The notes beneath the pieces were generated by a model. The model saw nothing but the letters and a program-made list of their open reading frames with translations, was not told the DNA's origin and did not search any database. Positions 8,482 to 35,495 of a DNA stretch of 39,190 nucleotides are shown here, one piece after another. A program made the position numbers and the translations under genes. Each line of letters opens with the position of its first letter. The stretch's first letter is position 1. Origin of the DNA: a virus; IMG/VR virus record IMGVR_UViG_3300042988_001037, positions 1 to 39,190 of that record; one strand, 5' to 3'.

Positions 8482-8512
8482 TTTATTATCTCCTTTGCTT
8501 TTTGATAATTTT

Positions 8513-8541: not shown

Positions 8542-8567
8542 TAACAATTGTAAAATTATGCAAAATA

Positions 8568-8600
8568 CAAAAAAAGCCACTAATTAAAGTGACTTTTTTG
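8568..8600 (-). terminator. Terminator at the end of the late operon
   Basis: Minus-strand stem AGTCACT/AGTGGCT followed by a run of T residues. It follows the holin gene and closes the long structural operon. The A run on the other side could also make it act on the plus strand. Confidence 0.8.
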
Positions 8601-8612
8601 TTTAAAACATAT

Positions 8613-20552: not shown

Positions 20553-20581
20553 TTGACATAAATTGATATGATTGTTATAAT
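20553..20581 (+). promoter_or_regulatory. Plus-strand promoter 2 (full consensus)
   Basis: TTGACA (20553-20558), 17-nt spacer, TATAAT (20576-20581). A perfect match. It directly follows one terminator, and another comes about 110 nt later. Confidence 0.8.
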
Positions 20582-20587
20582 AAAGAA

Positions 20588-20698
20588 GCATATTTGATAA
20601 CCTGTATATTAGTAAAAAATTAGTTTGAATTAAGTTTCTACATGTCAGTTTTAAACTTTATCGAAAAATAAGACTTGCTTAAATGAGTCTTATTTTTT
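20588..20698 (+). ncRNA. Candidate short RNA B
   Basis: A consensus promoter (20553-20581) and a strong terminator hairpin (20666-20695 with T run) bracket ~110 nt with no gene; the only ATG frame is 9 codons. It may be a stand-alone regulatory RNA or an attenuated leader of the plus-strand operon. No known RNA family recognised. Confidence 0.55.
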
Positions 20699-20700
20699 TA
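20666..20700 (+). terminator. Rho-independent terminator
   Basis: AAATAAGACT (20666-20675), 10-nt loop, AGTCTTATTT (20686-20695), then TTTTT. The A-rich start means it may also work in the opposite direction. Confidence 0.8.
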
Positions 20701-20702
20701 TG

Positions 20703-20731
20703 TTGCTTTATACATGTATACATGTTAACAT
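20703..20731 (+). promoter_or_regulatory. Plus-strand promoter 3, gene island
   Basis: TTGCTT (20703-20708), 17-nt spacer, TAACAT (20726-20731). The spacer contains ATACATGTAT (20710-20719) followed by ACATGT touching the -10 box. Drives the 126-aa gene and those after it. Confidence 0.6.
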
Positions 20732-20754
20732 TAAATAAAAAAGGAGAAATTTAC

Positions 20755-21135
20755 ATGTTAATGATAACAACAAGAAGTACAGCGATTAGTACATATGAGG
20801 GAATAATCAAATTAGAAAAAGGAAAACTAGCAAGACTTTCAAGGACAGGAGACAAAGATTTTATAGAGTGCACAACAACAAATGGAAATGTAACAAAAAC
20901 AAGAAAATACCAGTTGATTTCACAGGTTGATAACATAGCATTTTCAAAGCAATTTGATTCTTTCAATGCTGTTGCACAAAGGAAATTAGAAACATATGGA
21001 AGCCAGGTTATAAAAAAAGGTCAAATGGTAGAATTAAATGTAGATGGTAAAAACTTTAAAAGTATTTTCAAAGATTTTTCTATGACAGAGGTTAACTATA
21101 TCTTTGATTCGATACCAACAAAAATAAATATTTAA
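20755..21135 (+). CDS. Hypothetical 126-aa protein (first of plus-strand island)
   Basis: Starts at ATG 20755 (MLMITTRSTAISTYEGIIKL) behind AAAGGAG. The rest is mixed alpha/beta and basic, with SRTGDKDFIECTTTNGNVTKTRKYQ and a helix QFDSFNAVAQRKLETYGSQV. No TM segment or metal site. Family not recognised. Orientation and flanking terminators mark it as moron-like cargo. Confidence 0.7.
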   Translation: MLMITTRSTAISTYEGIIKLEKGKLARLSRTGDKDFIECTTTNGNVTKTRKYQLISQVDNIAFSKQFDSFNAVAQRKLETYGSQVIKKGQMVELNVDGKNFKSIFKDFSMTEVNYIFDSIPTKINI

Positions 21136-21146
21136 AGGAGAATATT

Positions 21147-21494
21147 ATGAACGCAAAAGAAGCAAAAGAAATATATGAAAAAGCTTTAAATGATAGAAAA
21201 GAAAGATTTGAAAATGATGTAAATATTCAATCACAGATTGCGATGCATCATGAAATGATAATGGCTAAAGTGAAAGAAAATGTAAGCAACTGCATTGACG
21301 ATTCTTACATAACAATAACTATAAATTCTATGGATGTTGCAGAAGAAAAATACATGATAGAATCAATTAAATCTTCCATAGAAGATTATGGATTTGAAGT
21401 AAATATATTTAGACAATCACAAGAAAAAGTAATGGATATGCTATGTAAATTTAATCTTACGAGCAACATAATAATAAGAGTATACTTATTTTAA
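21147..21494 (+). CDS. Hypothetical 115-aa protein
   Basis: MNAKEAKEIYEKALNDRKER: a helical N-terminal half, then ITITINSMDVAEEKYMIESI and YGFEVNIF strands, an alpha-beta layout. AAAGGAG precedes the ATG; 12 nt after the preceding stop. Unknown. Confidence 0.7.
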   Translation: MNAKEAKEIYEKALNDRKERFENDVNIQSQIAMHHEMIMAKVKENVSNCIDDSYITITINSMDVAEEKYMIESIKSSIEDYGFEVNIFRQSQEKVMDMLCKFNLTSNIIIRVYLF

Positions 21495-21581
21495 AACAGG
21501 AGTGATAACTAAAGTTAACAAAAGAATTGATACTGACAGTTTTAGTAAACATTCTGATAAAAATAATGAAGAGGTGATAAC

Positions 21582-21860
21582 ATGAATTTATTTAAAAAGA
21601 AAAAAATAATATGTAAAGACTTATCTACTGTGACCTATGAAGCAATTATTGCTTGCAGACTTGAAGAAATATTACATCATGTTCAGATTGCAAAGGATAA
21701 CGGTAAAAATTACTGCACTGCTGTAATAGGAATAACAGGTAGCCACACGTCAAAAGTCCTGGATAGACTAGAATGCGATTTAAGAGAAATAATGAAAGAT
21801 TGCTATTATCATTACAACAAAGAAAAATTCACAGCACACTTTTTTCTTGAATGGGAATAA
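21582..21860 (+). CDS. Hypothetical 92-aa protein
   Basis: MNLFKKKKIICKDLSTVTYE, with AIIACRLEEILHHVQIAKDNG and a C-terminal YNKEKFTAHFFLEWE strand. GAAGAGGTG precedes the ATG. It resembles the 115-aa neighbour in overall alpha-beta layout, but I cannot show homology by eye. Unknown. Confidence 0.65.
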   Translation: MNLFKKKKIICKDLSTVTYEAIIACRLEEILHHVQIAKDNGKNYCTAVIGITGSHTSKVLDRLECDLREIMKDCYYHYNKEKFTAHFFLEWE

Positions 21861-21976
21861 AAATAGATCCATATTTCATTATTACATTTTCTATCGCTTA
21901 CATACTATCCAAGCACATTACCACTTTTATACTAAACACATTAACAAGGTTATTATTCAGGATTATGAGGTACTAA

Positions 21977-22108
21977 ATGGATAAATACTTGAATTTTCTA
22001 AACTGCTTTCTAAACTGCATTATATCAATTTTTATTGTGGAGTTTATAAAGCAAAAAATAACACAAGTAAAGGAATATTTACATGATAAAGCTAATAAGA
22101 CACATTAG
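21977..22108 (+). CDS. Small single-TM protein, 43 aa
   Basis: MDKYLNFLNCFLNCIISIFI followed by VEFIKQKITQVKEYLHDKAN: one hydrophobic segment (about residues 5-22) and a basic amphipathic tail. GAGG lies 6 nt before the ATG. It overlaps the HNH gene start by 26 nt. Unknown; could be a toxin-like or superinfection peptide. Confidence 0.55.
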   Translation: MDKYLNFLNCFLNCIISIFIVEFIKQKITQVKEYLHDKANKTH

Positions 22109-22520
22109 GACTCATTTGTATTGCGATTATTATCTAAATACTTTATATCATTTCCCAAAATGGTATCCAGAATGGTTAAGAGAAAAATTGATAATAAGAA
22201 ATAATTTAGATGACGATGATGTAAAAAGAGAAGTAAGAAGATTATATTACAATTATTTTTTAAATACTCCATATTGGCACACCATATCAAATTATATGAA
22301 AAGAAAAGCAAAATACAAGTGTAAAAAATGTGGTAAAAAGAAAAATAAAACAACAAGAAATGAATTGAATGTGCACCATTTAGACTATGAATTACATGGA
22401 TATGAACATTTAAAGCTTATGCAGAAAACAGATTTGATAGTGGTTTGTAGCACATGTCACAAAAAGCTCCATAATTTGCCTACAAACAAAGAAACTCATT
22501 GCAAATCTTCAAAAAAGTGA
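22083..22520 (+). CDS. HNH homing-type endonuclease
   Basis: A 145-aa protein with the HNH nuclease fold in the C-terminal half: CKKCG (80-84), LNVHHLDY (HH 98-99), and VCSTCHKKLH (C122, C125, H130). Zinc-binding Cys pairs and the catalytic His are present. The basic helical N-terminal 75 residues may bind DNA. AAAGGAATATTT precedes the ATG. Here it ends a plus-strand island rather than flanking the terminase, so it may act as a free-standing mobile endonuclease or a packaging nicking enzyme. Confidence 0.85.
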   Translation: MIKLIRHIRTHLYCDYYLNTLYHFPKWYPEWLREKLIIRNNLDDDDVKREVRRLYYNYFLNTPYWHTISNYMKRKAKYKCKKCGKKKNKTTRNELNVHHLDYELHGYEHLKLMQKTDLIVVCSTCHKKLHNLPTNKETHCKSSKK

Positions 22521-22591: not shown

Positions 22592-24154
22592 TTATCTTGA
22601 AGCTGTAACCATAGCATTCACTACGTCTTCAAACCACCATGTCAAATTGCTCCTGTTTAATAATGCACCAGTTGTTATTGCAGATTCAACCCTTGTTCCG
22701 TCTCCACCTGCATCCCACCATACACATTTTATTCCATAGGCCTTGCACTTTGATACAAAAGCAGTGACATGCTCGACTCTTTCAGCTGTATTGTTTTTGT
22801 TGTACGATGCAAACTCACCAATAATTACAGGAACACCGTTAGAAATAAACTTAGTATTTAGATTTGCAAAAAGTGTATCCAACGAAACACCATGTGTAGC
22901 CGGGTTATACTCTGTAACAGCTGTATTACCAGAGCCATCACCTGTATACCAACAAAAATCTTGTGGTGCATAGTAATGCACTTGTACCATAAGCCTGTTT
23001 GGTACTGTATCAGTAGGTAGTACAAAGTAGGTATAATATGGTGTAGCTCCATATGTGTTAATAGACAATAGCCTGTCAGAATTTCTTCCACCTGTTGCCC
23101 TTACTGCATAAACAAACGTTTGATACAATTGATTTAAGCTATTCTGTTCTGCCTCTGTTGGTGCACTCCACGAATTACCAGAGTCAAGAACCTCGTTCAT
23201 TCCCTCAAAAATAAGCTTGTGGTCATAATCCTTAAAAGCAGTAGCTATTATTGTCCAATATGTGGTTAATTGTGATTTTGCGTTTGCTAGTGCTGTAGGG
23301 TCTGTAAAAGCCTTTAGCCAACCAGAACTAACACCATCGTGGTGAATGTTTATTATGCAGTGCATATTTAACTCCATACACCAGTTAACCATCCTTTTTA
23401 CTCTATTCATCCATGCAGTTTCAAACGTGCTTGTATTTGTATCCCAGTGGGCAAACCAAGTGGTTGGAATTCTAACACAATTGATTCCTTTTTCTTTTAT
23501 TGCTGATAGCATAGCTTTTGTTGTAACAGGATTCTGTAAATAGGTTTCTGTCCAGTCTTCCTTTGATGGTGGATTCGCAGGAGCAAGCCAATCAGTAACT
23601 GTTAAGGTGTAAGAAACTATTGCATTTGCAAAGTCTTCTAATGTGTTAAGTCCATAGCTCGCAAAATTAACATTAACATCATTAGCAACTGTTCCACCTA
23701 GTGTAATGGTACTGTCAAAATTACCATTCATTTCTGTGATTGTTTGTGGACTTCCACCACTTTTTGTTAATGTAAAATTAGAAATGGTATAGTAAATACT
23801 ATCAGTTCCACAATCACCAATTGCATAATTCATAATTCGATATTGCATTCTTACTGGTGTACGTGCATACTCATTTGTTGCAACTGATGTAATTGTTGTT
23901 GATATGCTTGCTATTCCAGTAGATGCTGTTATTTTCTTACTTGAACTTCCAATCAATTGAAGAGAAGATGTCGAATCAACGATATACAAATAGGTATAGT
24001 AAGCATCTTTTTTAAGTATATCTAATTCGTAGGGTGTTGTAGTATTGAAATTTTCTAGTGTATTACCAAGATTCCAACCAACTGTTATATCATTTAACAT
24101 AGACTGTGCAGTTGGATAGTTCTTTTGCATTTTTAAAACATCACATATTTGCAT
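22592..24154 (-). CDS. GH5 cellulase-type glycanase, no signal peptide
   Basis: A 520-aa protein starting MQICDVLKMQKNYPTAQSML (ATG 24154 overlapping the previous stop as TAATG). GH5 TIM-barrel motifs: GWNLGNTLE (26-34), VRIPTTWFAHW (227-237), NIHHDG (269-274), FEGMNEV with acid/base E321, VHYYAP (392-397), and IIGEFAS with nucleophile E447. The GWNLGNTL motif points to the GH5_4-type endo-beta-1,4-glucanases. Residues ~45-200 are an inserted beta-rich block in the first barrel loop, possibly a carbohydrate-binding module. No secretion signal exists, and it is coupled to a fibre-like virion gene, so it probably works as a virion-bound depolymerase or is released at lysis. Confidence 0.9.
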   Translation of the reverse strand: MQICDVLKMQKNYPTAQSMLNDITVGWNLGNTLENFNTTTPYELDILKKDAYYTYLYIVDSTSSLQLIGSSSKKITASTGIASISTTITSVATNEYARTPVRMQYRIMNYAIGDCGTDSIYYTISNFTLTKSGGSPQTITEMNGNFDSTITLGGTVANDVNVNFASYGLNTLEDFANAIVSYTLTVTDWLAPANPPSKEDWTETYLQNPVTTKAMLSAIKEKGINCVRIPTTWFAHWDTNTSTFETAWMNRVKRMVNWCMELNMHCIINIHHDGVSSGWLKAFTDPTALANAKSQLTTYWTIIATAFKDYDHKLIFEGMNEVLDSGNSWSAPTEAEQNSLNQLYQTFVYAVRATGGRNSDRLLSINTYGATPYYTYFVLPTDTVPNRLMVQVHYYAPQDFCWYTGDGSGNTAVTEYNPATHGVSLDTLFANLNTKFISNGVPVIIGEFASYNKNNTAERVEHVTAFVSKCKAYGIKCVWWDAGGDGTRVESAITTGALLNRSNLTWWFEDVVNAMVTASR

Positions 24155-24843
24155 TATACACCACCCCTTGAAAATCCTGCCCATGATGTGCCACTATCTG
24201 ACGTGATCAATACGATATAATAAACCTTTCCTACCTCAAAAACAGGAGCATTGCCAGTGTCCCAAGATATGCCACTAAACCAAGTGATTGAAGCCCCTGC
24301 AGTGTAAGTTAATTCAATTAACAGTTGAGCCCTTGTTGGAACATTTGAAATGCTGATTGTTTTCGCTGTAGCATTCCCTATTTCCATTGCTACATTCATG
24401 CTTGTTTTATCGTCAACGTCTATAGCATATGCATTTGTAACGTCTGCAACGGTAACATATTCGTCAAGTTCTTCTCTGATTTCATCAATTGTCAAGCTTT
24501 CGCCACTATTTCCACCACCTCCTCCCGACGATACCTTAAAAGGGTTTGTGTTCTCCTCTGCAGCAATAACATTTACTATTCCAGCGACAGCAGAACGGAT
24601 ATAAATAGTCTTTCTTTGGCCTCTTATAACAAGGCTCTCATTGGAACCTATGATGTAAACACCATCACTTGTAATCTCAAAATCGTTGCTGTACGAAATA
24701 TACATATTCCCTACTGACATGTTTTTAATAACATAAAATGGGTATGTGGTTGCGTATGCGTTTGATGTAAATGTTATCGCATTAATAACACCTGTTGCAC
24801 AGCTTAGCTGTGTAATATTACTTGCTGTTGTTTTTGATGCCAT
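24154..24843 (-). CDS. Head-fibre-like virion protein
   Basis: A 229-aa protein. Residues 1-100 form a beta-sandwich (TQLSCATGVINAITFTSNAY; NMSVGNMYISYSNDFEI; LVIRGQRKTIYIRSA). A Gly-rich linker (SGGGGGNSGES) and a short coiled segment follow, then a C-terminal domain (TISISNVPTRAQLLIELTYT; SITWFSGISWDTGNAPVFEV) of a kind common in phage fibres. It could attach the coupled GH5 enzyme to the virion. Ribosome binding site AAGGAGG. Confidence 0.65.
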   Translation of the reverse strand: MASKTTASNITQLSCATGVINAITFTSNAYATTYPFYVIKNMSVGNMYISYSNDFEITSDGVYIIGSNESLVIRGQRKTIYIRSAVAGIVNVIAAEENTNPFKVSSGGGGGNSGESLTIDEIREELDEYVTVADVTNAYAIDVDDKTSMNVAMEIGNATAKTISISNVPTRAQLLIELTYTAGASITWFSGISWDTGNAPVFEVGKVYYIVLITSDSGTSWAGFSRGGV

Positions 24844-24914
24844 GATATTACCTCCTTAATGGTTATAGTAACATTTTATCATATTTTTTTTATGTTGTAT
24901 AATCGACTTTACAA

Positions 24915-24944
24915 TAAAAAAACAGACATCATTACAATGCCTGT
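24915..24944 (-). terminator. Rho-independent terminator
   Basis: Minus-strand stem ACAGGCAT/ATGTCTGT (one G-U) followed by TTTTTTT. Lies upstream of the fibre gene, closing the 26-25 kb genes. Confidence 0.75.
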
Positions 24945-24945
24945 T

Positions 24946-25065
24946 TAAAAGGATAAAACATAAAAAAATAAAAAGTACTTTTACGTACACAATAAAAAAT
25001 AAAAAATAACTATATAAAGACAATTAAGTATAGCATTAAAAAAATTTAAATTCAATTGTATAATA
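24946..25065. other. AT-rich non-coding stretch
   Basis: About 120 bp of A-rich sequence between two terminators, with a small AAAGTACTTT palindrome. No gene is visible. A TATAAT (25059-25064, plus) lies right before the next hairpin without a clear -35. Confidence 0.5.
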
Positions 25066-25066
25066 T

Positions 25067-25103
25067 AAAAAAATGCAGTCCTATAATGTGACTGCATTTT
25101 TTT
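25067..25103. terminator. Bidirectional terminator
   Basis: AAATGCAGTC (25071-25080), loop, GACTGCATTT (25090-25099), with A run before and T run after: perfect 10-bp stem. Confidence 0.85.
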
Positions 25104-25177
25104 GACATTTGACGGACTTCGAAAAATGATTAGAAGACCTATAGTATATATCTTTTTTTTAAAATTATCAAGAAATT

Positions 25178-25471
25178 TTATTTTTTTCTATTCCTTTTTC
25201 GTTCATTTTTTTTATGCATTGAGATAGTACAATAGTCAGGATATAGAAAATTATGAATTTCGTTCCGTATGTCTTTATCATGGTGAAAAGTAGGTATAAA
25301 AGAGCATACCATAGTAGTAAATAGATTGTCGCTCTTAACATTGTCTTTATATCTCCAATCTTTTATTAAATTAATAATAATTTCCGTAAAAATACTAACT
25401 GTCAGAATCATCATTGTGAATGTTATCGATAGTGTCAGTATTTGCATTGCTATATACACTGTTTCGTTCAT
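25178..25471 (-). CDS. Hypothetical single-TM protein with basic tail
   Basis: A 97-aa protein whose residues ~6-34 form a long hydrophobic helix (IAMQILTLSITFTMMILTVS) followed by LIKDWRYKDN and a His/Lys/Arg-rich tail (MHKKNERKRNRKK). It overlaps the preceding gene by 77 nt. GAGG lies 10 nt before the ATG. Unknown. Confidence 0.55.
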   Translation of the reverse strand: MNETVYIAMQILTLSITFTMMILTVSIFTEIIINLIKDWRYKDNVKSDNLFTTMVCSFIPTFHHDKDIRNEIHNFLYPDYCTISMHKKNERKRNRKK

Positions 25472-25613
25472 TCCACACCATCCTCATGAAAAGATTTGCC
25501 ATAGAAATATCTTTCTCTTTTGCTATAGCCTTAAATATTTCTTTTGTGCCTTTTCTTACCCTGAATTGTAAAAGGTCATAATTATCCTTGTTGTATTTAT
25601 ATCCTCTTGACAT
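25395..25613 (-). CDS. Ribbon-helix-helix-like DNA-binding protein
   Basis: MSRGYKYNKDNYDLLQFRVR then KGTKEIFKAIAKEKDISMAN and LFMRMVWNERN: the strand-helix-helix pattern of Arc-type regulators, with a Ser/Asn/Asp-rich tail. No separate ribosome binding site; the gene overlaps the 108-aa gene's end and is probably coupled to it. An ATG 15 nt upstream is an alternative start. Confidence 0.65.
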   Translation of the reverse strand: MSRGYKYNKDNYDLLQFRVRKGTKEIFKAIAKEKDISMANLFMRMVWNERNSVYSNANTDTIDNIHNDDSDS

Positions 25614-25923
25614 TGGAAAGTTTAACATTTGCGTCTAATATGCCACGAAATAATATTCTGTTTATATCATTTTCAGAAAATTCTAGCATATCACCATCGG
25701 AATCAACAACACTGTATCTTATCAGGGTTTCTGTTGCTGTTTCCATGGTCCTTATTGTCACTACGGTTCCTATAATAACCTCTGATTGCTCTTTTGATAA
25801 CACTACATAAACCTCATCGCCAGGATCAAAGCTCGGAAAATTCTTTTCTATTTTCTCAAGCATATCAATGTTGCAATAATCCTTTTTTTCACACATTTCT
25901 TTTAATACATCTTTTCTTTTCAT
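25597..25923 (-). CDS. Hypothetical 108-aa protein
   Basis: MKRKDVLKEMCEKKDYCNID begins a helical N-terminus; residues 33-95 look like an SH3-like barrel (FDPGDEVYVVLSKEQSEVII; VVTIRTMETATETLIRYSVV; MLEFSENDI). GAGGC precedes the ATG. An AT-rich region with the inverted repeat GTATACATATATAC lies upstream and may hold its promoter. Unknown. Confidence 0.6.
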   Translation of the reverse strand: MKRKDVLKEMCEKKDYCNIDMLEKIEKNFPSFDPGDEVYVVLSKEQSEVIIGTVVTIRTMETATETLIRYSVVDSDGDMLEFSENDINRILFRGILDANVKLSNVKRI

Positions 25924-25982
25924 GTCTGCCTCTTTCTTATATTTTGTATATATGTATACAAGTATAGCATAAAAAAAGACAA

Positions 25983-26004
25983 AGAAAAAGAGCCTTTCGG
26001 CTCA
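25983..26004 (-). terminator. Rho-independent terminator
   Basis: Minus-strand GAGCC-GAAA-GGCTC followed by TTTTTCTTT. Ends the operon containing terminase, portal, fibre glycanase and minor capsid genes. Confidence 0.8.
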
Positions 26005-26008
26005 ATTT

Positions 26009-26137
26009 CATTTAAACATGTAGGCAATTACGATTGACATAGATACACACATGCTTAGGAGTAATAATATTACTATAAATAAATTAAGATTACTCTTTTG
26101 TATTTTAATTATTTTCTCTCGCATAAATAAGCACATC
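26009..26137 (-). CDS. Tiny single-TM protein, 42 aa
   Basis: MCLFMREKIIKIQKSNLNLF then one TM segment (about 18-40, IVILLLLSMCVSMSIVIAYM). The stop TGA is directly before the terminator. The start is the ATG at 26137 or the in-frame ATG at 26125. It follows the 84-aa gene by one base. A possible small holin or antiholin partner. Confidence 0.55.
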
Positions 26138-26138
26138 C

Positions 26139-26393
26139 TCACTTGCTAAACAAGTCTATTATAAGTGTTGTTGCTATCGTTGTCAATCCTGTTATAATTG
26201 CTATTGCAAGCACTTTACCAATAGATATTAATGTATCAATTTTTGAATGCATGGTAACGAACTCTAACCTCAAATCTGCGTGGTCTTTCCTTATCTCATC
26301 ATGTTCTTTGTTATTGTTTATTCTGTCTTCTTTCATCATGTCATACTGCCTTTTACACCTTTCGTCACACTGCTCATGTGTAATATATTCCAT
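26139..26393 (-). CDS. XhlA/holin-like membrane protein
   Basis: An 84-aa protein. The N-terminal 55 residues are charged and helical (EQCDERCKRQYDMMKEDRIN; HADLRLEFVTMHSKIDTL) and the C-terminal part is one TM helix (VLAIAIITGLTTIATTLIID). This resembles haemolysin XhlA-type proteins, which help holins. GAGGTG precedes the ATG. Its place behind the minor capsid gene is odd for a lysis gene. Confidence 0.6.
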   Translation of the reverse strand: MEYITHEQCDERCKRQYDMMKEDRINNNKEHDEIRKDHADLRLEFVTMHSKIDTLISIGKVLAIAIITGLTTIATTLIIDLFSK

Positions 26394-26405
26394 GTGTTCA
26401 CCTCA

Positions 26406-27524
26406 TCATATGTTTTTGCTTGCAATTTGCAAGTTGTTTTCGTTTGAAAAATATTTATATTTTGCTATTTGTTTCTTTAATCTGTTCTTTTCTGTTGCTA
26501 AAAAGTGTGACGTATCAGCAAAATTTTGTTTTCTCATACTTGATAGCATAGATACTTTACTTTTTGTAATTCTTATCTGCCTTTCCATCTGTCTTTGCTT
26601 TGCATATAGCTGATATTGGTTTGAGTAATCTTCATTAGCAAATTTTTCATATGGATTTTCATCACCTTTTTTATGTGGTGCAAAAGAGTGCCTACAATTC
26701 CATCCAAGCAAGCCACCTGGATCAGTTGGAAATCCTGTTTCTTTTTCCAAATTATCTGCATATTCGTCTTTTCCATCAATTTTGTACACGTTTGCTTGCC
26801 ATTCCACATGACTCCATGTTTTTTTAACAGGATGATATCGTGCACCTCTGTGACCAGATACAATCACATAATCAAAACCATTATTTACTGCTGATTTTAA
26901 TGTTATATTTCCTGATGCACGATTGATTGTTGTCTGTACAATCTTTTTTACATCAGCAGACAAATAAGAGGTAGATAATCCAAATGTTCCATGCATGCCT
27001 TGATTTGCTATTTTCTTTATCATGTCGTAGATTATATTTTCTAACCTAACATTTCCATAGTACTTTTGTAACTCAAGTGACATTGCAAAAGAATTTCTTA
27101 TCGCTATATCTGGAGTATCCTTTGTCATATTCCTTATTTCGTTAATTGCCTTTGTGTAATCTGACTTTAAAGACTTGCTAAAGACTCCAGATTGGCTTAT
27201 TTCAGGCTTTTTTATATCATGCTTAGAGTAAGTTAGGCTGTAGTCATTTTCAAGGCTTATTTTGGCTGTTCTGATAACCTCTTTAGGCAACAAAGACTCT
27301 GTTTTTTTGATTGCATTCTTTATTTTATTTTTGGTATATATGCCATACTCTGACGATAAACGGTTTGATTCTTTTGCATAGTCTTTTTTAGACACATTTT
27401 TTTCTAAAAGAAGAATCAAAATAACAAGCATGTTAAACTGTTCTTCCAATACATCATCTTCCATGTTTCTGTAATACTCAATTATTTCTGTTCCACTTTT
27501 TGCAATCGTTAATTCATCGAGCAT
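26406..27524 (-). CDS. Minor capsid protein 2 (MuF-like)
   Basis: A 372-aa protein in the head morphogenesis position. The N-terminal ~200 residues are helical and the conserved core is SGHRGARYHPVKKTWSHVEW (223-242), FPTDPGGLLGWNCRHSF (265-281) and PHKKG, the signature of phage minor capsid protein 2. It is thought to be packaged inside the head and ejected or to assist portal assembly. A coiled coil follows (residues 305-350). AAGGAGG precedes the ATG. Here it sits after two enzyme genes instead of directly after the portal. Confidence 0.85.
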   Translation of the reverse strand: MLDELTIAKSGTEIIEYYRNMEDDVLEEQFNMLVILILLLEKNVSKKDYAKESNRLSSEYGIYTKNKIKNAIKKTESLLPKEVIRTAKISLENDYSLTYSKHDIKKPEISQSGVFSKSLKSDYTKAINEIRNMTKDTPDIAIRNSFAMSLELQKYYGNVRLENIIYDMIKKIANQGMHGTFGLSTSYLSADVKKIVQTTINRASGNITLKSAVNNGFDYVIVSGHRGARYHPVKKTWSHVEWQANVYKIDGKDEYADNLEKETGFPTDPGGLLGWNCRHSFAPHKKGDENPYEKFANEDYSNQYQLYAKQRQMERQIRITKSKVSMLSSMRKQNFADTSHFLATEKNRLKKQIAKYKYFSNENNLQIASKNI

Positions 27525-27540
27525 GGCAATACCTCCTTAT

Positions 27541-28884
27541 TTAGTATGTATATGACCTATTTGAACCTGCTCCAAATCGAGTCAGATTTACTGTTCTTGT
27601 ACTTCTGTTTATATTGATTATGTCAAAGCAATCCTCTGTGGATGTATTTACTGTACGTGTAGGAACAACTGCATTATATCCAGATAATAAAGCAGATTTT
27701 GCAGCACTAGACACATCATAAAGCAAGCTACTTGCAGTGTGTGTAACTGGTAGTATTCCGGCATAAAGGGAGTATCTGTCATAGTGCCTATGTCCGTTAA
27801 ATGTGCCTATCATTTCCGTTGTTGTCCTATCGGTAAAATCTACAGCTATAGTACCACTATACAATGCATCGTATGAAGCAGATAACGTTAAAGAAGCCGA
27901 CGTTTTTGCAAGGAAATGTTGTATTATTGTTGCTAGTATACCAGCATTTACATATGTTCCACCGTAAGAATCAAAGTTACCCAAATTATGTGCAAATATT
28001 ACAACACCCCATAGATTAGGGTCTGCTTTGTCTTCCATACGCAAAGTATTGTAAAACCATGTAAGCTGTGCGTTTGAATATCCACCCTGTGGAGATATAC
28101 CGTTAACAGTCTCACTGATATTATAAATTGGAACTCCAGTTGATGTCACATATTCAAATGCATTTACTATTACTACACGTGTCTTACTAGATTCTATGTC
28201 GTAATAGTAGTATCCTTGTCCAATTGTATCCTCTGGGTTTATCGTTATTCTTTTCTTTTCTTGTGGAAGCAGTATTTCATTTATATTTCTAGGTGCATTT
28301 CTTAGCCAATACTGATAATGTGAGCTGTCGTGGTTTCCCCATACAAATCTAGCAGGACAGCAAGCATTGTACTCAAATTCCTTTGCTACATCTAATAATA
28401 GTGTACTATTATCAGGTTTGCTGTCATAATCCCACACCACATCACCACCATGTATAATCATGTCTAAATAGGTGTATTTTGATAGTTCACATACGTTTGC
28501 CATATGGCTAAGTGAATATGTGCCATCTGTAATAGTAACCTCTCCATAGATAGGGTTAACAGACCGTCTGTGGTGGCTGTCTGTAGTAAATGCTATCTTT
28601 GTTCCTGTATATCCTTTTACTATGTCACCAACCCTCACCACCTCTGCATCAAAGACAGCAGAATCATAGTGAGATAAAAGAAGATTTACATTTAACTTTG
28701 CATCGTCAATGTCTCCTTGTGCATTTCCAACATCTGTCTGGACATCTGAAATATCTCCCTCAAGTCCAGATATATCTTCTTGCAATCCTGACAAAAAACC
28801 ATTTACAGAACTGATGTCACCATCAATTCTGTCTGTTTGTTCTTTCATGTGTGTAACTAACTGATTTATAGCCTCTCTCATCAT
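27541..28884 (-). CDS. Virion-type metallophosphoesterase with coiled-coil N-terminus
   Basis: A 447-aa calcineurin-like phosphoesterase with all metal-site motifs: TDSHH (D102, H104), HGGDVV (D148), GNHD (183-186), FAHN (H299) and GHRH (364-367). Residues 1-70 are a coiled coil with IDGDISS, LEGDISD and GDIDD heptads, the usual trimerising base of phage fibres. No signal peptide. AGG-AATTAATA precedes the ATG and the start follows the GH5 fibre stop by 2 nt. A phosphate ester in a teichoic acid or cell-surface polysaccharide is a likely substrate (inference). Confidence 0.85.
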   Translation of the reverse strand: MMREAINQLVTHMKEQTDRIDGDISSVNGFLSGLQEDISGLEGDISDVQTDVGNAQGDIDDAKLNVNLLLSHYDSAVFDAEVVRVGDIVKGYTGTKIAFTTDSHHRRSVNPIYGEVTITDGTYSLSHMANVCELSKYTYLDMIIHGGDVVWDYDSKPDNSTLLLDVAKEFEYNACCPARFVWGNHDSSHYQYWLRNAPRNINEILLPQEKKRITINPEDTIGQGYYYYDIESSKTRVVIVNAFEYVTSTGVPIYNISETVNGISPQGGYSNAQLTWFYNTLRMEDKADPNLWGVVIFAHNLGNFDSYGGTYVNAGILATIIQHFLAKTSASLTLSASYDALYSGTIAVDFTDRTTTEMIGTFNGHRHYDRYSLYAGILPVTHTASSLLYDVSSAAKSALLSGYNAVVPTRTVNTSTEDCFDIININRSTRTVNLTRFGAGSNRSYTY

Positions 28885-28886
28885 TA

Positions 28887-31847
28887 TTAATTACCTCCGT
28901 AAATTTCTTGGTAAATTTTTGTAACTTCATCTGCTGTCAGGTCTGACAAGTAGCACTGTTTAAAAATGTACTCTAACCTTTTATTTTTAAACCTTTCATC
29001 ATGCAACTGCTCGTAAAATGAAAAAGTATTTCCTGTAAATGGCTCGTTGTAATCATGATAATTGTGACTTACCTTGTTGTCTAAAAATACTTTTATTGCA
29101 TCATGAACCCACAAATCTCCACCTTTTGTATAGGAATCATCTCTTGTGCCAAACTCACCGACGAATAAAGGTACTCCTGCATTATCAGTAAATGCTTTGT
29201 AATCGTAAAGCAACTTTTCGTGTATTTCCTTGTTGTAAGCAAAAAAGTATGGTGCTGTTATTTCATCGCATCCGACAGCAACAGTCACATTGTGGTCAGA
29301 TTGCACATTTGTTATTTTTACTTTGCATTCAACAGAATATTTGTATCCAGTAGGAACTATAAATCTTTTCGCAAGTGCAACCCCACCATCGCCGATATCT
29401 GTCATAGCTGAATAGCTTGTGTTTGCGTTAAGCTCGTTCAATACAGTTAAACGTAAAAAATCAGAATCACCGTCACCACTTCCAGATGCCTCTGAAATAG
29501 TCCAGTAATTTGCTTTTGTTGTAAATATAGCACCATTCTGGCAATCATCCTCAAATGCTGTAAATACTTCATTGTTTGAAGCATCATATATTTTTATTTT
29601 GAAGTTATCAAGGTCAATTATTTCTCCGCCACCTGCGTTATAGACATTGATAAAAGGAAAAATAAAGTCTACTCCTGAATCAGGTGTTGTTATTCCTGTT
29701 GTTATTGTTGTATATGTTGTTTCGCTTGCTCCACCTGATGCAATCGTTCTATTACCAGACTTAGTATTTACATAAGTGTATGTACCATCCCATGAGTATA
29801 ATGCTAGGTCGTTTGGATATACCATACTAGGATGACTGTAGTCACTCGCATTGTGAGATAGTGCAATCGGCTGATAATGATGTGCTTCATAGACATAGTT
29901 TGTATCCTCAACACCATTATTCAAAACACTTATAAAATTAAGGTTCGAATTTAGAGTAAACACCTTGCTACCGTCTCCCAATACTCCAGCTATTGCACAT
30001 TCAGAAAATATGATGTGATTTGTGTCTACTTCTCTTATTTCTGTAACAATACTGTTGCTTAATGTCTGGTATCTTGCTATAGTGTTTGCTTCGGATGAAT
30101 TCCAAGTTATATTAGGCTCATTAATTAGGCCATAACCAAGTATAATATCCTCATCCTTGTATTTTCTTGCTATAGCTTTCCAGAGATTTATTAATCTTGT
30201 CTGTGTGTCCGAATCTGTCCATAAATCAACATCTTCTTTGCCACCTAAGCCCTGATAAACATGCATGTTTAAGCACAATCTTATATCATGTCTTCTTGCC
30301 ATTTCTATTTCTGCATCTAAGAAATCCCATGCTTCTTGCTTATAGTCGGCTGGATCTCCTGCAAGTGTTGGGTCTATAACTGGACTGTCTGCATCTTCGA
30401 ACCACTCATATGTCATGTAAAAACGTACGGAATTGAATCCTAAGTCATGTAATTCCCTGTATGTATCTTCATTGTGCGTTTCGATTATTCCGTTTGTGCT
30501 ACCGAGTGGACTTGAGTACTGATCTGTTGCGATATATCCAACATTGTTGTAAAATCCCATTGCTTTCATCACAAATTCTATACCGTTTTCATCTTCCATT
30601 TTAGTTCCATTTGTGGAAATGAAGTTTTTGTTGAATATATTACTATTTTTTGCAATGTAATACTTTTCATCTTGCTGAATAACTTTATCCATTAAATAGT
30701 TTATTTTTGGGATTTCTCCTGCATATATTACGTTTTCTTGCAAGCTTTCTATCCCTGTAATATATTTGGTTCTAAAATCATTAAATGTCGTGTCAATTCC
30801 TGTGATATCCAATAATATGCAATACTCTATATCCATATCCAAAGCATTGCTTGAAGTGTCAATTATCTGGAAAAACCCACTAACATTTGCACTAGAATGC
30901 TCATAAATATAACCAGTTTGAGCAAAGTTTGAAGATATAGGAATGCTTGTATTACCTGCTAGGTAGTAAGGTGGTGTTTCCACTCCTAGGCGTAGCTGTA
31001 CAGTATTATTAGCACTTAAAATACGATATGACATTAATAGCAAATACTTGTGTGCATTTTGTACGGTAAAGGTCTTATATAAGTATTTTTCTCCTGCATA
31101 GGATGATGTGAGCTTTGTGTAATTGTCCATAACTTCGGATGATAAAGTATCATTTCTATATCCCATATTCCAATATCCGTAAGGACTTTTCATATTATAA
31201 TCATCAATCATGTTTGGAAAAGTACCAACATTTTCTACCCCTGTAGATTCTGTGAATGCGTCTGCAATCGCCTGTCCCATTTCCTCTGTTGTGCTGTAGT
31301 CTGCTAGTGCTGTTCCAATTAGAGAATTTACTTCACTTGCATCTTGAAATCCTGATGTGGCATTTGCAATCGCTTGATTCATTTGAGTTGTATTGCTGTA
31401 TGAGGATAAAGATGTATCGATTAAGTCTTGAACATCTTCAAGGCTTAAGTTATTTAATTCAATTTCGTCTATATCGTCCTGTAGTGCACTCACTAAAGCA
31501 ATTATCTGATTGTATACGTCCTGTGTTGGTTCTTCTGGTGTTTGTCCTTGCGTGTAGCCACTTGCAGTAACAGATATACTTAGTACATTAGCAGTAACCA
31601 AGTCACCACAAAATGCAGAAACAACCATAGAACCTGACTTTATAACTTCCCAAGGTATAAAACACTCTTTGTTTGCGTCCAAAACAACTGCATAATATTC
31701 CCCATCGTGACCCCAAAGAGTAGTAATAACTCCTGTCCAGTCATTTGACACTGTAAAATGTGCTTTCAAATAATTTACGGAGTCAGCAACAACAAATGTA
31801 TTATCGGTTCTTGTTAATCTCTGTCCTGTTATGTTTAATTCTAACAT
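28887..31847 (-). CDS. Fibre with GH5 glycanase domain
   Basis: A 986-aa protein. Residues 1-95 are a virion-attachment-type beta domain (BppU-like: LNITGQRLTRTDNTFVVADS, HFTVSNDWTGVITTLW). Residues 105-200 are coiled coil. Residues 215-350 are a jelly-roll-like module. From ~400 comes a GH5 barrel: VRFYMTYEW (R475), CLNMHVYQG (N527), YGLINEPN (E577), EAHHYQP (H656-Y658), VPLFVGEFGTRDD (E898). Residues ~690-865 between the HxY and the nucleophile strand look like an inserted beta-sandwich. GAGGTGGAATAA precedes the ATG. It probably degrades a host surface beta-glucan during adsorption. Confidence 0.88.
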   Translation of the reverse strand: MLELNITGQRLTRTDNTFVVADSVNYLKAHFTVSNDWTGVITTLWGHDGEYYAVVLDANKECFIPWEVIKSGSMVVSAFCGDLVTANVLSISVTASGYTQGQTPEEPTQDVYNQIIALVSALQDDIDEIELNNLSLEDVQDLIDTSLSSYSNTTQMNQAIANATSGFQDASEVNSLIGTALADYSTTEEMGQAIADAFTESTGVENVGTFPNMIDDYNMKSPYGYWNMGYRNDTLSSEVMDNYTKLTSSYAGEKYLYKTFTVQNAHKYLLLMSYRILSANNTVQLRLGVETPPYYLAGNTSIPISSNFAQTGYIYEHSSANVSGFFQIIDTSSNALDMDIEYCILLDITGIDTTFNDFRTKYITGIESLQENVIYAGEIPKINYLMDKVIQQDEKYYIAKNSNIFNKNFISTNGTKMEDENGIEFVMKAMGFYNNVGYIATDQYSSPLGSTNGIIETHNEDTYRELHDLGFNSVRFYMTYEWFEDADSPVIDPTLAGDPADYKQEAWDFLDAEIEMARRHDIRLCLNMHVYQGLGGKEDVDLWTDSDTQTRLINLWKAIARKYKDEDIILGYGLINEPNITWNSSEANTIARYQTLSNSIVTEIREVDTNHIIFSECAIAGVLGDGSKVFTLNSNLNFISVLNNGVEDTNYVYEAHHYQPIALSHNASDYSHPSMVYPNDLALYSWDGTYTYVNTKSGNRTIASGGASETTYTTITTGITTPDSGVDFIFPFINVYNAGGGEIIDLDNFKIKIYDASNNEVFTAFEDDCQNGAIFTTKANYWTISEASGSGDGDSDFLRLTVLNELNANTSYSAMTDIGDGGVALAKRFIVPTGYKYSVECKVKITNVQSDHNVTVAVGCDEITAPYFFAYNKEIHEKLLYDYKAFTDNAGVPLFVGEFGTRDDSYTKGGDLWVHDAIKVFLDNKVSHNYHDYNEPFTGNTFSFYEQLHDERFKNKRLEYIFKQCYLSDLTADEVTKIYQEIYGGN

Positions 31848-31858: not shown

Positions 31859-32440
31859 CTATTCCTTTGTATACTCGGTACTACTTCCAAATCCATCAAG
31901 CTCCATGTGTAGGTCAAAAAAGTCCATTGATATATCGCCTGATATAACGTTATCATCTCTGTATAATGCCCCTATAAGCATCGCTGACAAACCTAAACCT
32001 TTTGTGCTTATTCCTGCAGACCCTTGTACTATTTGCGATATAGTGCCACTTACATATGTAAAAATATTTGTGTTCATCGTGTACACCGTTGGTGTTCCTG
32101 CTATCGCCTTGCCAGGGTCTGAAATTACATAAGCAAATTTCCATACTGACTGACCAGCTGAGGATTGTCTAATATGCACATGTGGTCTTATTATTGAGTT
32201 AAGTTTTATTGCATGGCTTAATTGATATGAATAAAATAGTTTTTCATCTGTAACATTTTGTGGGAACTGGTAAGCTGCCAAAGATTCATCAAAATCAGGT
32301 TTTGCGTTTGCTCCAAGCTTACCAGCCAAGCCAGTTAATGCTAGGTCATTTGTATCTGTACCATTTCCAACCAGACGTATCTTATTAGCAACCGTTATGT
32401 TTTGTACCATTAAATTCTCTGGCATGTAAGATTCTCTCAT
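31859..32440 (-). CDS. Conserved phage structural protein (fibre or neck type)
   Basis: A 193-aa protein starting MRESYMPENLMVQNITVANK, chosen because GGAGGG lies 7 nt upstream. It has HVHIRQSSAGQSVWKFAYVI, ISTKGLGLSAMLIGALYRDD, and the ending MDFFDLHMELDGFGSSTEYT, a pattern (FDLHYQ.D..GS.EEY) I recall from many phage neck or fibre genes. Immediately after the portal. Beta-rich and probably trimeric. Confidence 0.7.
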   Translation of the reverse strand: MRESYMPENLMVQNITVANKIRLVGNGTDTNDLALTGLAGKLGANAKPDFDESLAAYQFPQNVTDEKLFYSYQLSHAIKLNSIIRPHVHIRQSSAGQSVWKFAYVISDPGKAIAGTPTVYTMNTNIFTYVSGTISQIVQGSAGISTKGLGLSAMLIGALYRDDNVISGDISMDFFDLHMELDGFGSSTEYTKE

Positions 32441-32444
32441 TTCT

Positions 32445-33863
32445 TTACCCTCCAAACATTGTATTTTCTTCTTCTTTTGGTTCTACTTCTTCCTGTATCA
32501 TTTTCGCTTCTTCCTCTGTGAACCCCTCGAATCTTACAAGGTACATCCACTTTGGTATAAAGCCAGATGTTGCCATTTGATACCACCTTGTCTTGTCTTC
32601 TTCGTAATTATAGGTTATATCTCCAAATGTAAACGTTTCTTTGTATGTCCCTACTGGTATGCTGTTTAAGTCTGCAATGATATTTAATGCAAAGATAAGA
32701 TTTGATAATCCTTTTTCAAGTACCTCTCTTCTTGCTTTTATCGTTCCTATTGTTCGTGCGTCCTCTGACTCTACCTGTGTGGCTGTAACCATGCCCCTTG
32801 ATACATCAAAGTTAAAATATCCATTAGAAAACCCTGCCTTATACGAAATTATATCAAGTATTTTGTTTATACCTAACATTCTTGCATCTGTCTGTATCGT
32901 CGGGTTGATTTCCTGGTAAAAATCATCTGTACCATTACCGTATAGCAGTTTAACATACCTAGGTAGTGTTATATCTGACTTTTGATTTATCTTTTGTCCT
33001 GCTTTATTTACCATTGTATCATCAATCAATACCATTTTCTTGCTGTCGTATATTTCAGACATAAACCTGCTGTACGATACATCTAGATCCATTAATTCAT
33101 TCATCGCATCGCCAAACGCAGACATGGACAACGGACTGTATTCATCTATGTTATTTGCAATTGGTAGGTTTAGTAAAACAAATAAAGGCTTGTTTTCTTC
33201 TTCTTTTCCGATGTCTATTACTGTTTCTGGCTCATATTCTGACCATATCGTCTCTGTTAATAATACTTCTTTTCCTATCATATCTTCTTTGCCAGACTTA
33301 AAAGCTTTGTGTGAGATGTAATACAATCCATCCTGAAATCGTTGCCAGATTGCTAAAGTATAAAAGTCTTTGCCTTGTCTGTAATAGTCAAAATAGATTA
33401 CACCTGTAACCTTTTTGTTACCATCCATATTCGTTACATAAAAGTTTTCAGGTGTTATGATGTCTATTCCGTCCATGTTTGGTACTAATAGCAAGCTTCC
33501 GTGTTCTTCCCAATGCTCACACATTATCTGTATGTTTTCCATAAATGAAGACATTCGCTTTTTTAGATACTCACTTCTTTTGTTTGCTTCCGTTCCTTGC
33601 TTATTTTCATCACCATCAAAACTCAATTCTATGTTTAATGTTGTCAATCTGCTTAATTCGTTGCAAATTGTTTTAGCAAAATTGATTGTTTTAACGTCAT
33701 CTTCTGCATTAACCCAAACAGGCATACCCATGTAAGTATTTACCCATTTGGCATGCTCTACAACCATCAGCTCATTTTCTATCACGTCTGTGTTATATGC
33801 CTTTTTGCTGTCTTTTCTAAACATTCTCTTTATCACTCCTTTTACACTTTCTATTAGTTGCAA
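32445..33863 (-). CDS. Portal protein
   Basis: A 472-aa portal of the SPP1 gp6 class: MQLIESVKGVIKRMFRKDSK, EHAKWVNTYMGMPVWVNAED, SRLTTLNIELSFDGD, ADLNSIPVGTYKETFTFGDI. It forms the dodecameric ring through which DNA is packaged. AAAGGGG lies 5-10 nt before the ATG. Starts 15 nt after the terminase stop. Its C-terminus is Glu-rich. Confidence 0.9.
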   Translation of the reverse strand: MQLIESVKGVIKRMFRKDSKKAYNTDVIENELMVVEHAKWVNTYMGMPVWVNAEDDVKTINFAKTICNELSRLTTLNIELSFDGDENKQGTEANKRSEYLKKRMSSFMENIQIMCEHWEEHGSLLLVPNMDGIDIITPENFYVTNMDGNKKVTGVIYFDYYRQGKDFYTLAIWQRFQDGLYYISHKAFKSGKEDMIGKEVLLTETIWSEYEPETVIDIGKEEENKPLFVLLNLPIANNIDEYSPLSMSAFGDAMNELMDLDVSYSRFMSEIYDSKKMVLIDDTMVNKAGQKINQKSDITLPRYVKLLYGNGTDDFYQEINPTIQTDARMLGINKILDIISYKAGFSNGYFNFDVSRGMVTATQVESEDARTIGTIKARREVLEKGLSNLIFALNIIADLNSIPVGTYKETFTFGDITYNYEEDKTRWYQMATSGFIPKWMYLVRFEGFTEEEAKMIQEEVEPKEEENTMFGG

Positions 33864-33878: not shown

Positions 33879-35495
33879 TTATGCCTGTGTTCCTCTTCTG
33901 TTAAAATATGGCTCATAACTGTATCGTAGTGCAGATATTGCATGGTCATTCATGTCTGGATAACCAGATATTACATTGCCCTCTTTATCTCTTTGATACT
34001 CGTATTCTGTTATTTCTTTTAATGCATTAGGAGTTCTTGCGGGGTCTATTATAATCTTTCTTCTTTGCAACCATTTAAATCCATAGTCAACACTCCCTGG
34101 ACCCTTTGTTGCTGACTTTGCAGGTAGCCCCATATCTCTGTAATCTGCAACACTCTTTGGCTCTTCCGAGTCGCACGTGATTGTATAATCTCCGTACCCC
34201 TTATCTATTATCCACTTTGCTGTATCTGCGTTTGGTATTTTGCACCCGTAGTTTTCATCAAGCAAAAATATTTCTTCGTGATTTGAGTTATAATGACTAC
34301 GTAAAAATGAATAAGGGTCTGGATACCATCCCCAGTCTGCCCCCTGGAATATATGGTCAAACGTCGCTATTTCTTCATCTGTTATGGTTCTTATTTCGAC
34401 GTAATCAAACACCATGCCACCATTACCATTTACAACACCACCATATTCATGGTCGTATGCGTCAGGGTTTGTTCTCTTTAAATGCTCTGCTTCATCGATA
34501 AATGGTTGTTCTATCCATTCCACTGGTATTTGCGTATAATCAGAGTGATGCACTATCCTGTTTTCTTTTGGTATTAATACATATTTGTTCGCCCAATTCA
34601 TCGCTGTTTTAGGTGGATTAAATGATTCAAATAGAAAAGCTAAAGGACCACCTCTCAAGGCAGACTGTTTTATTTTTCTTACTTCCTCTTCCCCACAGAA
34701 CTGGTCTAATTCTTCCAGCCAAAGAAAAGCAATATACCCAAACTCTGGATTAATTGATTTAATTTTGTCTGGATCATCTGCACCACGAAAATATATTGTT
34801 TGTCCTGTTGGCTTATATGTAATCTCCAAAGGACTCTTGCCACAATTAAATTCTTCCTGCAACCCTTGCTTATTTATTGCCCACTTTATTTTTGCATATA
34901 CAGAATTTTTAACCGTATTACCTACTTTACGACATACTAACGCATGTGTATCAGGGTTATTTTTTATTAGCTCTACTATTATTTGTGCAATATTTGATGA
35001 TTTTGTAGAACCTCTGCCACCTTTGAATACAAATTCTAGAAATTTAAAATCTCTTATCTGTCGTATAACAGAATGAAAGCAGTCAGCTACATCATACAAA
35101 TCCATATGATATACTTTTGCTTTCCTTGCCTCTTCTTGCATCTTTAACTTTTGCTCGTGTTCTTCCTTGATTCGCAATGCCTTTTCCAAAGATGCAGCTA
35201 CACGTTCTTTGTCCTGGATAGATACGTCTAATCCAAAGGCATCCTTTTCCTGTCCACGTAGCACACGAGTACGAAATTCCTGTATATCCTGTAGTGTAGC
35301 AATAGTAACAACGTCTAGTTTTTGCTGTCTTTCGGCTATATATTGCTTAACATGTTCATACGTCAACAATCGGCTTCCTGATGTAACAGCTGTTTTTTCC
35401 GAATATCCAACCTTTATCGCCGACTGCTTCGCATTACCAGTCTTTATATATTCATCTGCAAACTTCTTTTGTCTCTCTGTCAGTCTATTATCCAT
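33879..35495 (-). CDS. Terminase with fused small- and large-subunit domains
   Basis: A 538-aa protein from the ATG at 35495 (MDNRLTERQKKFADEYIKTG), with AGGAGG 8 nt upstream. A GTG at 35504 touches the ribosome binding site and is unlikely. Residues 1-60 are a small-terminase helix-turn-helix (AKQSAIKVGYSEKTAVTSGS), ~60-125 a coiled linker, then a PBSX-type large terminase: Walker A GGRGSTKS (159-166), Walker B LWLEELDQ, SFNPP motif III, nuclease acidic motifs GADWGWYPDPYSF, TCDSEEPKSV and PDMNDHAISALRYS. The usual arrangement is two separate genes. Confidence 0.9.
   Translation of the reverse strand: MDNRLTERQKKFADEYIKTGNAKQSAIKVGYSEKTAVTSGSRLLTYEHVKQYIAERQQKLDVVTIATLQDIQEFRTRVLRGQEKDAFGLDVSIQDKERVAASLEKALRIKEEHEQKLKMQEEARKAKVYHMDLYDVADCFHSVIRQIRDFKFLEFVFKGGRGSTKSSNIAQIIVELIKNNPDTHALVCRKVGNTVKNSVYAKIKWAINKQGLQEEFNCGKSPLEITYKPTGQTIYFRGADDPDKIKSINPEFGYIAFLWLEELDQFCGEEEVRKIKQSALRGGPLAFLFESFNPPKTAMNWANKYVLIPKENRIVHHSDYTQIPVEWIEQPFIDEAEHLKRTNPDAYDHEYGGVVNGNGGMVFDYVEIRTITDEEIATFDHIFQGADWGWYPDPYSFLRSHYNSNHEEIFLLDENYGCKIPNADTAKWIIDKGYGDYTITCDSEEPKSVADYRDMGLPAKSATKGPGSVDYGFKWLQRRKIIIDPARTPNALKEITEYEYQRDKEGNVISGYPDMNDHAISALRYSYEPYFNRRGTQA

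Follow-up and report, generated by a model that had tools for sequence, protein, structure and literature searches.

We describe a phage genome with two GH5 proteins encoded in its late gene block, which are best explained, and probably so, as a glycanase module of the virion. The window, that is, the whole stretch of DNA that was analysed, is a virus record of 39,190 bases with its late block on the minus strand. The case draws on the fold family and active-site residues of both proteins, the gene order, a stop/start overlap, the anchors to which the enzymes are joined and the recurrence of the enzymes in other phages.

Two GH5 Genes Are Located among the Head Genes

All genes of the late block named here are on the minus strand. 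The TerL gene (33879-35504, assigned by Pfam) is followed by the portal gene (32445..33863; phrog_533, 9.6e-79), a gene for a 198-aa protein for which family searches gave no match (31859..32455), and fib986, which encodes a fibre-type GH5 enzyme of 986 aa (28887..31847; PF00150, 2.3e-21) with homologues in two other phage contigs, L099 and L103. Next come a gene for a 447-aa metallophosphoesterase protein whose N-terminus, judged by eye, is likely coiled (27541..28884; PF00149, 1.8e-6; phrog_7158, 2.3e-42), the minor capsid gene (26406..27524; PF06152, 2.7e-33) and several small ORFs, which lead to the small fibre gene fib229 (24154..24843) and to gh5b (22592..24154; PF00150, 1.1e-54), encoding a second, GH5_4-like enzyme. 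The scaffold gene (19601-20227; phrog_194), the major head protein gene (phrog_247) and tail genes down to the holin lie beyond.

A sequence-only reading of the window had set both GH5 genes among head genes, which agrees with their TerL, portal, PF06152, phrog_247 and phrog_194 neighbours. Its finer placements were correct in part. fib986 is near the portal gene, but the gene for the 198-aa protein intervenes; the two GH5 genes do lie on either side of the minor capsid gene, but fib986 is followed by the metallophosphoesterase gene, and the fib229-gh5b pair is separated from the minor capsid gene by the small ORFs and by two minus-strand terminator-like sites, one downstream of the minor capsid gene (25990..26003) and one upstream of the pair (24920..24946). 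The terminator scan of the region, covering both strands, found 6 such sites versus 2.2 expected in shuffles.

Other features of the window were recorded as well. Small genes on the plus strand, one of them for an HNH endonuclease, form an island (20683-22520) that lies against the late operon between gh5b and the scaffold gene. A sigma-70-like match of 12/12 was found at 20553-20581, in a region with 49 promoter-like sites versus 42.9 expected. The interval 7065-8867 holds a 377-aa membrane-type protein beside the holin, and no endolysin was assigned among the window proteins put through family searches.

fib986 Combines a Fibre Anchor with a GH5 Barrel

The fib986 protein matched PF00150 (Cellulase/GH5) with 76.9 bits (E 2.3e-21), well above the curated cut-off of 23.5 bits. 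Its N-terminal fibre-anchor domain (residues 1-130; 31458..31847) matched phrog_19695 with an E-value of 1.1e-23 over residues 1-123 and was 47% identical to a prophage protein. After a stalk, a middle region without family assignment (about residues 210-395; 30663..31220) is common to the proteins of L099 and L103. The GH5 barrel is divided into a first part (about residues 405-675; 29823..30635) and a last part (28998..29252) by an insertion without family assignment (about residues 680-865; 29253..29810), for which the sole match among 259 ORFs, a set without L103, was in L099. Stalk and domain borders were read from the sequence, since the AF2 model, built with three sequences, had a pLDDT of 38 and was unusable.

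The catalytic pair and the conserved Arg, His, Asn, His and Tyr are known as invariants of GH5 enzymes, which also have a tryptophan at beta8. In fib986 the catalytic-type glutamates are E577, within INEP (30117-30119), and E898, within VGEFG (29154-29156), the two positions named in the earlier description of a 986-aa fibre with a complete GH5 active site. Both glutamates and the Arg, His, Asn, His and Tyr positions were identical across the fib986-type rows of the window, L099 and L103. The beta8 tryptophan was not evident; a Tyr-rich stretch is found at residues 930-933, where the alignment is unsure.

gh5b Is a GH5_4-Like Enzyme Coupled to a Small Fibre

The gh5b ORF (22592-24184, minus strand) encodes 530 aa from an upstream ATG and 520 aa from the coupled ATG at 24154. 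The junction between fib229 and gh5b reads GTATAATGCA, in which the fib229 stop and the gh5b start share one base (TAATG). The protein matched PF00150 with 186.2 bits (E 1.1e-54; cut-off 23.5 bits), and its glutamates, counted from the coupled ATG, are E321 within GMNEV and E447 within IGEFA. Both the residues and the exact TAATG thus agree with the earlier account of a second GH5 enzyme coupled to a fibre-like protein. Both glutamates and the Arg, His, Asn, His and Tyr positions were identical in gh5b, L099 and the bacterial protein L104, and the beta8 tryptophan of gh5b would be W480.

In sequence and fold, gh5b is closest to characterised GH5_4 enzymes, with 6wqp and 6xsu as top matches, and it is on these matches that we call it GH5_4-like. 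The structures nearest to it belong to GH5_4 endoglucanases from Ruminococcus and Clostridia (phmmer to 6wqp, 4.5e-64). The AF2 model, of middling quality with a mean pLDDT of 60.5, had as its top GH5_4 match in Foldseek one at 7.7e-21 with 36% identity and TM scores of 0.45/0.63, and structure comparison with GH5_4 (VIA) gave a Z of 24.8 and an rmsd of 3.8 over 299. Structure prediction with comparison to GH5 subfamilies was the check that the sequence-only reading had proposed for both proteins; the gh5b model yielded these matches, and that of fib986 could not be used.

A beta-rich domain inserted in gh5b (residues 35-202; 23549..24052) is absent in 36 non-phage relatives: in the alignment, both phage proteins have 171 residues in the stretch from N31 to E203, where those relatives have 0-26, the 0 being due to one truncated protein. 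Block pLDDT values over residues 51-190 of the model ranged from 46 to 87. The insert gave nothing above cut-off in the Pfam search, and it is without fold assignment, the structure-match lists having been filled by the barrel.

That these folds are non-catalytic lectins, kept for glycan binding only, is very unlikely: the long insertions in both barrels and the beta8 tryptophan that is not evident in fib986 would suit such a role, but the Glu, Arg, His, Asn, His and Tyr positions checked were identical in the compared rows of both enzyme types.

Neither GH5 protein has an evident secretion leader, in agreement with the sequence-only reading. The highest 12-residue hydropathy mean within the first 45 residues was 0.8 in fib986 and 0.4 in gh5b, versus 2.1-3.1 in the seven bacterial GH5_4 relatives checked out of 36. 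Sec export from a living host is consequently not expected.

Of 295 genomes drawn from the order to which a Ruminococcus MAG belongs, 39 had a match to gh5b, the best being about 43% identical. In the gene tree, the two phage gh5b proteins formed one side of a branch with support of 100/99, the point of attachment not being resolved. Such a pattern would fit a gene that was captured once, long ago, from a source of the Clostridia type and later passed from phage to phage, a direction that we infer.

The Enzymes Recur on Different N-Termini in Dissimilar Phages

IMG/VR was scanned with short peptide patterns, which can miss relatives. Single-protein patterns recovered no relative of either enzyme from the viral contigs, and relatives were found with alignment-based queries, which gave one contig with gh5b and two with fib986, one contig being common to both. 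The contig with both enzymes, L099 (113 kb; 113,327 bases), encodes a gh5b protein 60% identical over 508 aa, inserted domain included, and a fib986-type protein 39% identical over 768 aa that aligned with fib986 residues 210-958 only and has a collagen-like N-terminus. For the latter (L099:5210-8332), whole-protein hmmscan gave collagen only, and the GH5 call rests on a six-frame match to PF00150 (7.9e-16) together with the 39% alignment. The L099 module, which includes LamG lectin-like genes, is located between a gene for a virion structural protein (phrog_2729) and the tape-measure gene (phrog_4211).

In L103, a contig of 51 kb, the fib986 body was found at 37% identity on a fib229-type N-terminus, at the contig edge. 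This GH5 fibre gene lies two genes upstream of the portal gene, which is of the SPP1 type; genes for a 320-aa protein and, after it, a LamG protein come in between. No second GH5 was found by search in L103, a record that may be incomplete. The fib986 body is thus carried on three different N-termini in three phages (phrog_19695, collagen-like and fib229-type), and, as judged from these alignments, the anchor has been exchanged independently of the enzyme body.

The rest of these genomes is dissimilar. When 13 window proteins were compared at E 0.01 with 336 ORFs from 110,000 of the 113,327 bases of L099 and 13 kb of L103, TerL, portal, minor and major capsid, scaffold and tape-measure proteins gave no L099 or L103 match. 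Those that did match were the two enzymes, fib229 (L103), the tail-tip C-terminus and, weakly, a stalk, the last to a 988-aa protein. The C-terminus (residues 616-820) of the 827-aa tail protein of the window (8872-11355) is 28% identical over 216 residues to a 1098-aa tail protein (L106:2170-5466) of the 113-kb phage that also has the GH5 pair.

With both GH5 scores of the window far above the cut-off and the pair recurring in another phage, the observation is more than chance, and the recurrence in an unrelated phage suggests that phages trade a glycan-cutting kit as a unit. The enzyme-sharing phages are two, both from one metagenome; their names carry dataset number 3300001373, which the available part of PMC4589670 gives as the YB-M sediment metagenome of the Columbia River estuary. 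The description of the virus as a gut phage thus found little support in these sharing phages, though the relatives by portal include gut phages. When 391 genomes of the class were searched with fib986, 43 had matches, confined to the anchor (12 places) or to part of the GH5 region at 19-39% identity, and no match spanned the body.

Evidence for Virion Linkage Differs between the Two Enzymes

The sequence-only reading had linked both glycanases to the virion. For fib986 the link is supported by the phrog_19695 N-terminus, by homologues that have other N-termini and lie within the structural blocks of two further phages, and by the fibre-like genes that some relatives have in the same slot; fib986 is predicted from these features to be, quite likely, a virion protein. 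For gh5b the link is indirect, through its coupling to fib229, and its presence in the virion can be put at somewhat below an even chance from the gene arrangement. gh5b starts at the barrel, has no anchor domain of its own and falls in no PHROG family; what ties it to fib229 is the gene overlap. The N-terminal domain of fib229 is 40% identical over 94 residues (2e-19) to the N-terminus of the L103 GH5 fibre, and its C-terminal part resembles tail-fibre ends (phrog_3904, phrog_19200). The strongest indication that fib229 belongs with the enzymes comes from L103, where the fib986 body has an N-terminus of the fib229 type.

A different account is that both are auxiliary metabolic genes, whose products would be cellulases acting inside the cell or set free by lysis, not on the particle, and would help the host or the community around it to feed on plant or algal glucan. 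Published viral GH5 genes have been read in this way and are active: according to the available parts of the sources, a rumen viral GH5 was active on carboxymethylcellulose (PMC10465536) and a permafrost soil viral GH5 endomannanase on mannans (PMC6786970), both being discussed as auxiliary metabolism. In the window, gh5b is without an anchor, its nearest relatives outside L099 are bacterial GH5_4 enzymes, and the terminator-like sites set the fib229-gh5b pair apart. Against this, fib986 has a phage fibre anchor, a position in the late block and different N-termini in different phages, and an evident secretion leader is lacking in both GH5 proteins. Different anchors on one enzyme body favour virion-bound enzymes over ordinary cargo genes, and we regard the auxiliary metabolic account as unlikely.

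The Portal-Minor Capsid Interval Has Fibre-Like Genes in Some Relatives

We compared 85 portal relatives, namely 5 of 166 matching records from the phage collection and the best 80 of 86 from IMG/VR. In the 74 of the 85 where the distance between portal and minor capsid genes was readable, 47 had 30 bases or fewer, 19 had 31-799 and 8 had 800 or more, compared with 4.9 kb in the window. No PF00150 match was found in any of the 85, many of them short contigs, so GH5 content appears accessory in the lineage of the window phage. The 85 were searched as sets of 50, 30 and 5, and the single matches that came up with the last two sets were the L099 record and L103, respectively. The sequence-only reading had named a location outside the structural block in close relatives as evidence that would count against it; in the two phages that carry GH5 genes of this kind, neither of them close, the genes lie inside that block.

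Among the eight loci with long slots, L030 has a metallophosphoesterase fibre, an Ig-like protein (just under the Pfam cut-off) and a reverse transcriptase, L065 a GDSL esterase, L064 a pectate-lyase-like protein and L059 a weak match to a tail-fibre family, and family searches told us nothing of note about the remaining ones. Eleven loci have no readable minor capsid gene; in one of these, L026, a member of the phrog_19695 anchor family comes after the portal gene, its anchor being only 30% identical to that of the window over 74 residues (BLAST). The interval is thus a site for exchangeable fibre-like genes in part of the portal group. In L030 (4994-12021), the reverse transcriptase (PF00078, 1.9e-20) is beside a 596-aa fibre whose end, by eye, resembles the target of a diversity-generating retroelement.

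Dulem virus 35 has a slot protein plus separate tail-end genes, so the slot protein there is an extra one; on this ground we dropped the notion of a slot fibre that takes the place of a tail-end adhesin. The N-termini of slot proteins, compared with phi29-type head fibres, gave no PDB match of note, and the phage collection returned two already-known relatives only.

The Anchor Family Occurs at Both Ends of the Structural Block

The PHROG name of phrog_19695 gives no function, and the members seen here resemble fibres in both sequence and gene position; the fib986 anchor had no PDB sequence relative at a meaningful E-value. We read the genomic context of 5 of the 12 anchor matches from the class-wide search and of all 7 loci of a further search. 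Five contexts were tail-end (L166; L167/L173, which are the same prophage type; L168; L170/L177; L171), with the anchor homologue following tail-tip or baseplate genes or adjoining holin/lysis genes, and two weaker homologues, in Butyrivibrio virus Ceridwen and Ruminococcus phage NatCom_23091, were also tail-end. Head/neck contexts were found in the TerL-portal interval of L172 and after the lower-collar gene of phi29-like phages (L174, L175/L176); with L026 they total four, versus the five at the tail end, and the window itself adds to them. The homologue in L169 had no phage context.

Two further genes of this family were noted. The same anchor is joined to a polysaccharide deacetylase (PF01522) at L173:5998-8349 and L167:8039-10390, where the module is tail-end and includes a gene for a baseplate wedge; carbohydrate-active cargo on phrog_19695 is therefore not unique to GH5. 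At L172:4838-7347, a phrog_19695 fibre is accompanied by a 358-aa ORF that looks Fic-like by eye, both in the interval from TerL to portal.

Since anchor homologues occur at both ends, the location of the fib986 gene beside the portal gene does not settle the place of the protein, and the head/neck placement suggested in the sequence-only reading is not supported over tail placement, gene position being weak evidence. Within the virion module, fib986 could be a receptor-side depolymerase at the tail tip, a tail or baseplate fibre whose gene has moved beside the portal gene, a reading to which we give not quite even chances. It accords with the tail-end homologues listed above, and the phage matches of the neighbouring metallophosphoesterase were annotated as tail proteins in 4 of 8 cases; it is opposed by the anchors after lower-collar genes, in the TerL-portal interval and after the portal gene, and by the window tail-tip protein, which has, by eye, a fibre-like C-terminus of its own. 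Glycanase fibres mounted on the head or neck, as first proposed, are a weaker candidate, which we hold to be rather doubtful. They would match the gene position in the window and in L103, the anchors next to phi29-like collar genes, the extra slot protein of Dulem virus 35 and phrog_2729, a 'head and packaging' virion family, whose gene is next upstream of the first protein group of the L099 module; gene order does not fix location, however, the L099 module also precedes the tape-measure gene, and anchor homologues are tail-end at least as often. The remaining probability is for places not on the virion.

Proposed Role of the Glycanase Module

In the virion module that we favour, fib986 would be a fibre composed of a phrog_19695-type anchor, a stalk, the middle region that L099 and L103 have too, and a GH5 barrel interrupted by an inserted domain, and it would display an endo-glycanase on the particle. 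gh5b, which has an inserted beta-domain of its own, would be a GH5_4-type endo-beta-1,4-glucanase whose synthesis is coupled to that of fib229; probably fib229 would hold it, or lysis would set it free. As capsule depolymerases do, both enzymes might cut a beta-glucan-type polysaccharide that shields the host, be it capsule, exopolysaccharide, biofilm or a detritus film, and the enzyme bodies, alone or paired, may move between unrelated phages and join the anchor of each. The same bodies on three N-termini in three phages form a pattern as in the evolution of adsorption enzymes.

An extended version, which we consider improbable, would make the pair a mobile glucan-cutting kit on the head or neck of long-tailed phages, with barrels and inserted glycan-binding domains that hold the particle on a glucan-rich matrix (plant or algal fibre, or host exopolysaccharide) and cut toward the host. 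The kit would pass between phages of different families and be joined to the anchor that each of them has. If true, it would be the plant-fibre counterpart of mucus-binding head decorations.

Viral cellulases have so far been filed as auxiliary metabolism. If fib986 and gh5b are virion enzymes, some viral glycanases so classed would be tools for entry or for passage through matrix, and claims on carbon cycling by viruses would need rechecking. The analysis provides two proteins open to testing, defines an anchor family and points to the portal-minor capsid slot as a place in which to look for more.

Comparison with Known Systems

Several candidate sources of phage GH5 were rejected. Six GH5-matching INPHARED records named 'UNVERIFIED Bacteriophage sp.' (L011-L016; MT836393, MT836926, MT835600, MT835715, MT835480 and MT838576) have, by eye, the gene content of a bacterial chromosome (flagellar, transport and biosynthesis genes) and look mislabelled. 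In the available parts of two papers, 'GH5' is the name of a phage (PMC8303945) and the word endoglucanase occurs only in a reference title (PMC8703784). Further phage proteins that bear the name GH5 came up in the predicted-structure search, and open PMC texts yielded no paper on anchored GH5 pairs in phages.

The closest precedent is the 826-aa 'endoglucanase' of Klebsiella phage SopranoGao (ASV45041.1; MF612073), which matches PF23148 (Gp77; 2.1e-13) and PF00150 (2.4e-46) and is, like fib986, a structural-block protein with an N-terminal adaptor and a GH5 domain. It differs in the Gram-negative host and in the adaptor, and one glucanase is annotated in 50.0 of the 61.6 kb of that genome. 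The available part of PMC9505181 describes the phage and does not mention the endoglucanase. In view of this protein, the 'new way' through a matrix suggested in the sequence-only reading is too strong.

The Ruminococcus GH5_4 endoglucanases (6wqp, 6xsu) resemble gh5b in the catalytic domain, whereas in gh5b a secretion leader is not evident and 171 residues stand where the 36 non-phage relatives have 0-26. The viral GH5 genes discussed as auxiliary metabolism are likewise on viral contigs, and fibre anchors or pairs are not described in the available parts of those sources (PMC10465536, PMC6786970). The available part of PMC12692247 mentions a conserved N-terminal adapter.

In tailspike depolymerases, N-terminal anchor and enzyme body can be exchanged independently and the enzyme is carried on the particle. 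fib986 and gh5b differ from tailspikes in the GH5 barrel with its inserted domain, in the portal-minor capsid slot and in the presence of a second GH5 enzyme. Anchored phage GH5 was thus already known, and what is new here is a paired GH5 set with inserted domains that is common to otherwise dissimilar phages with different anchors.
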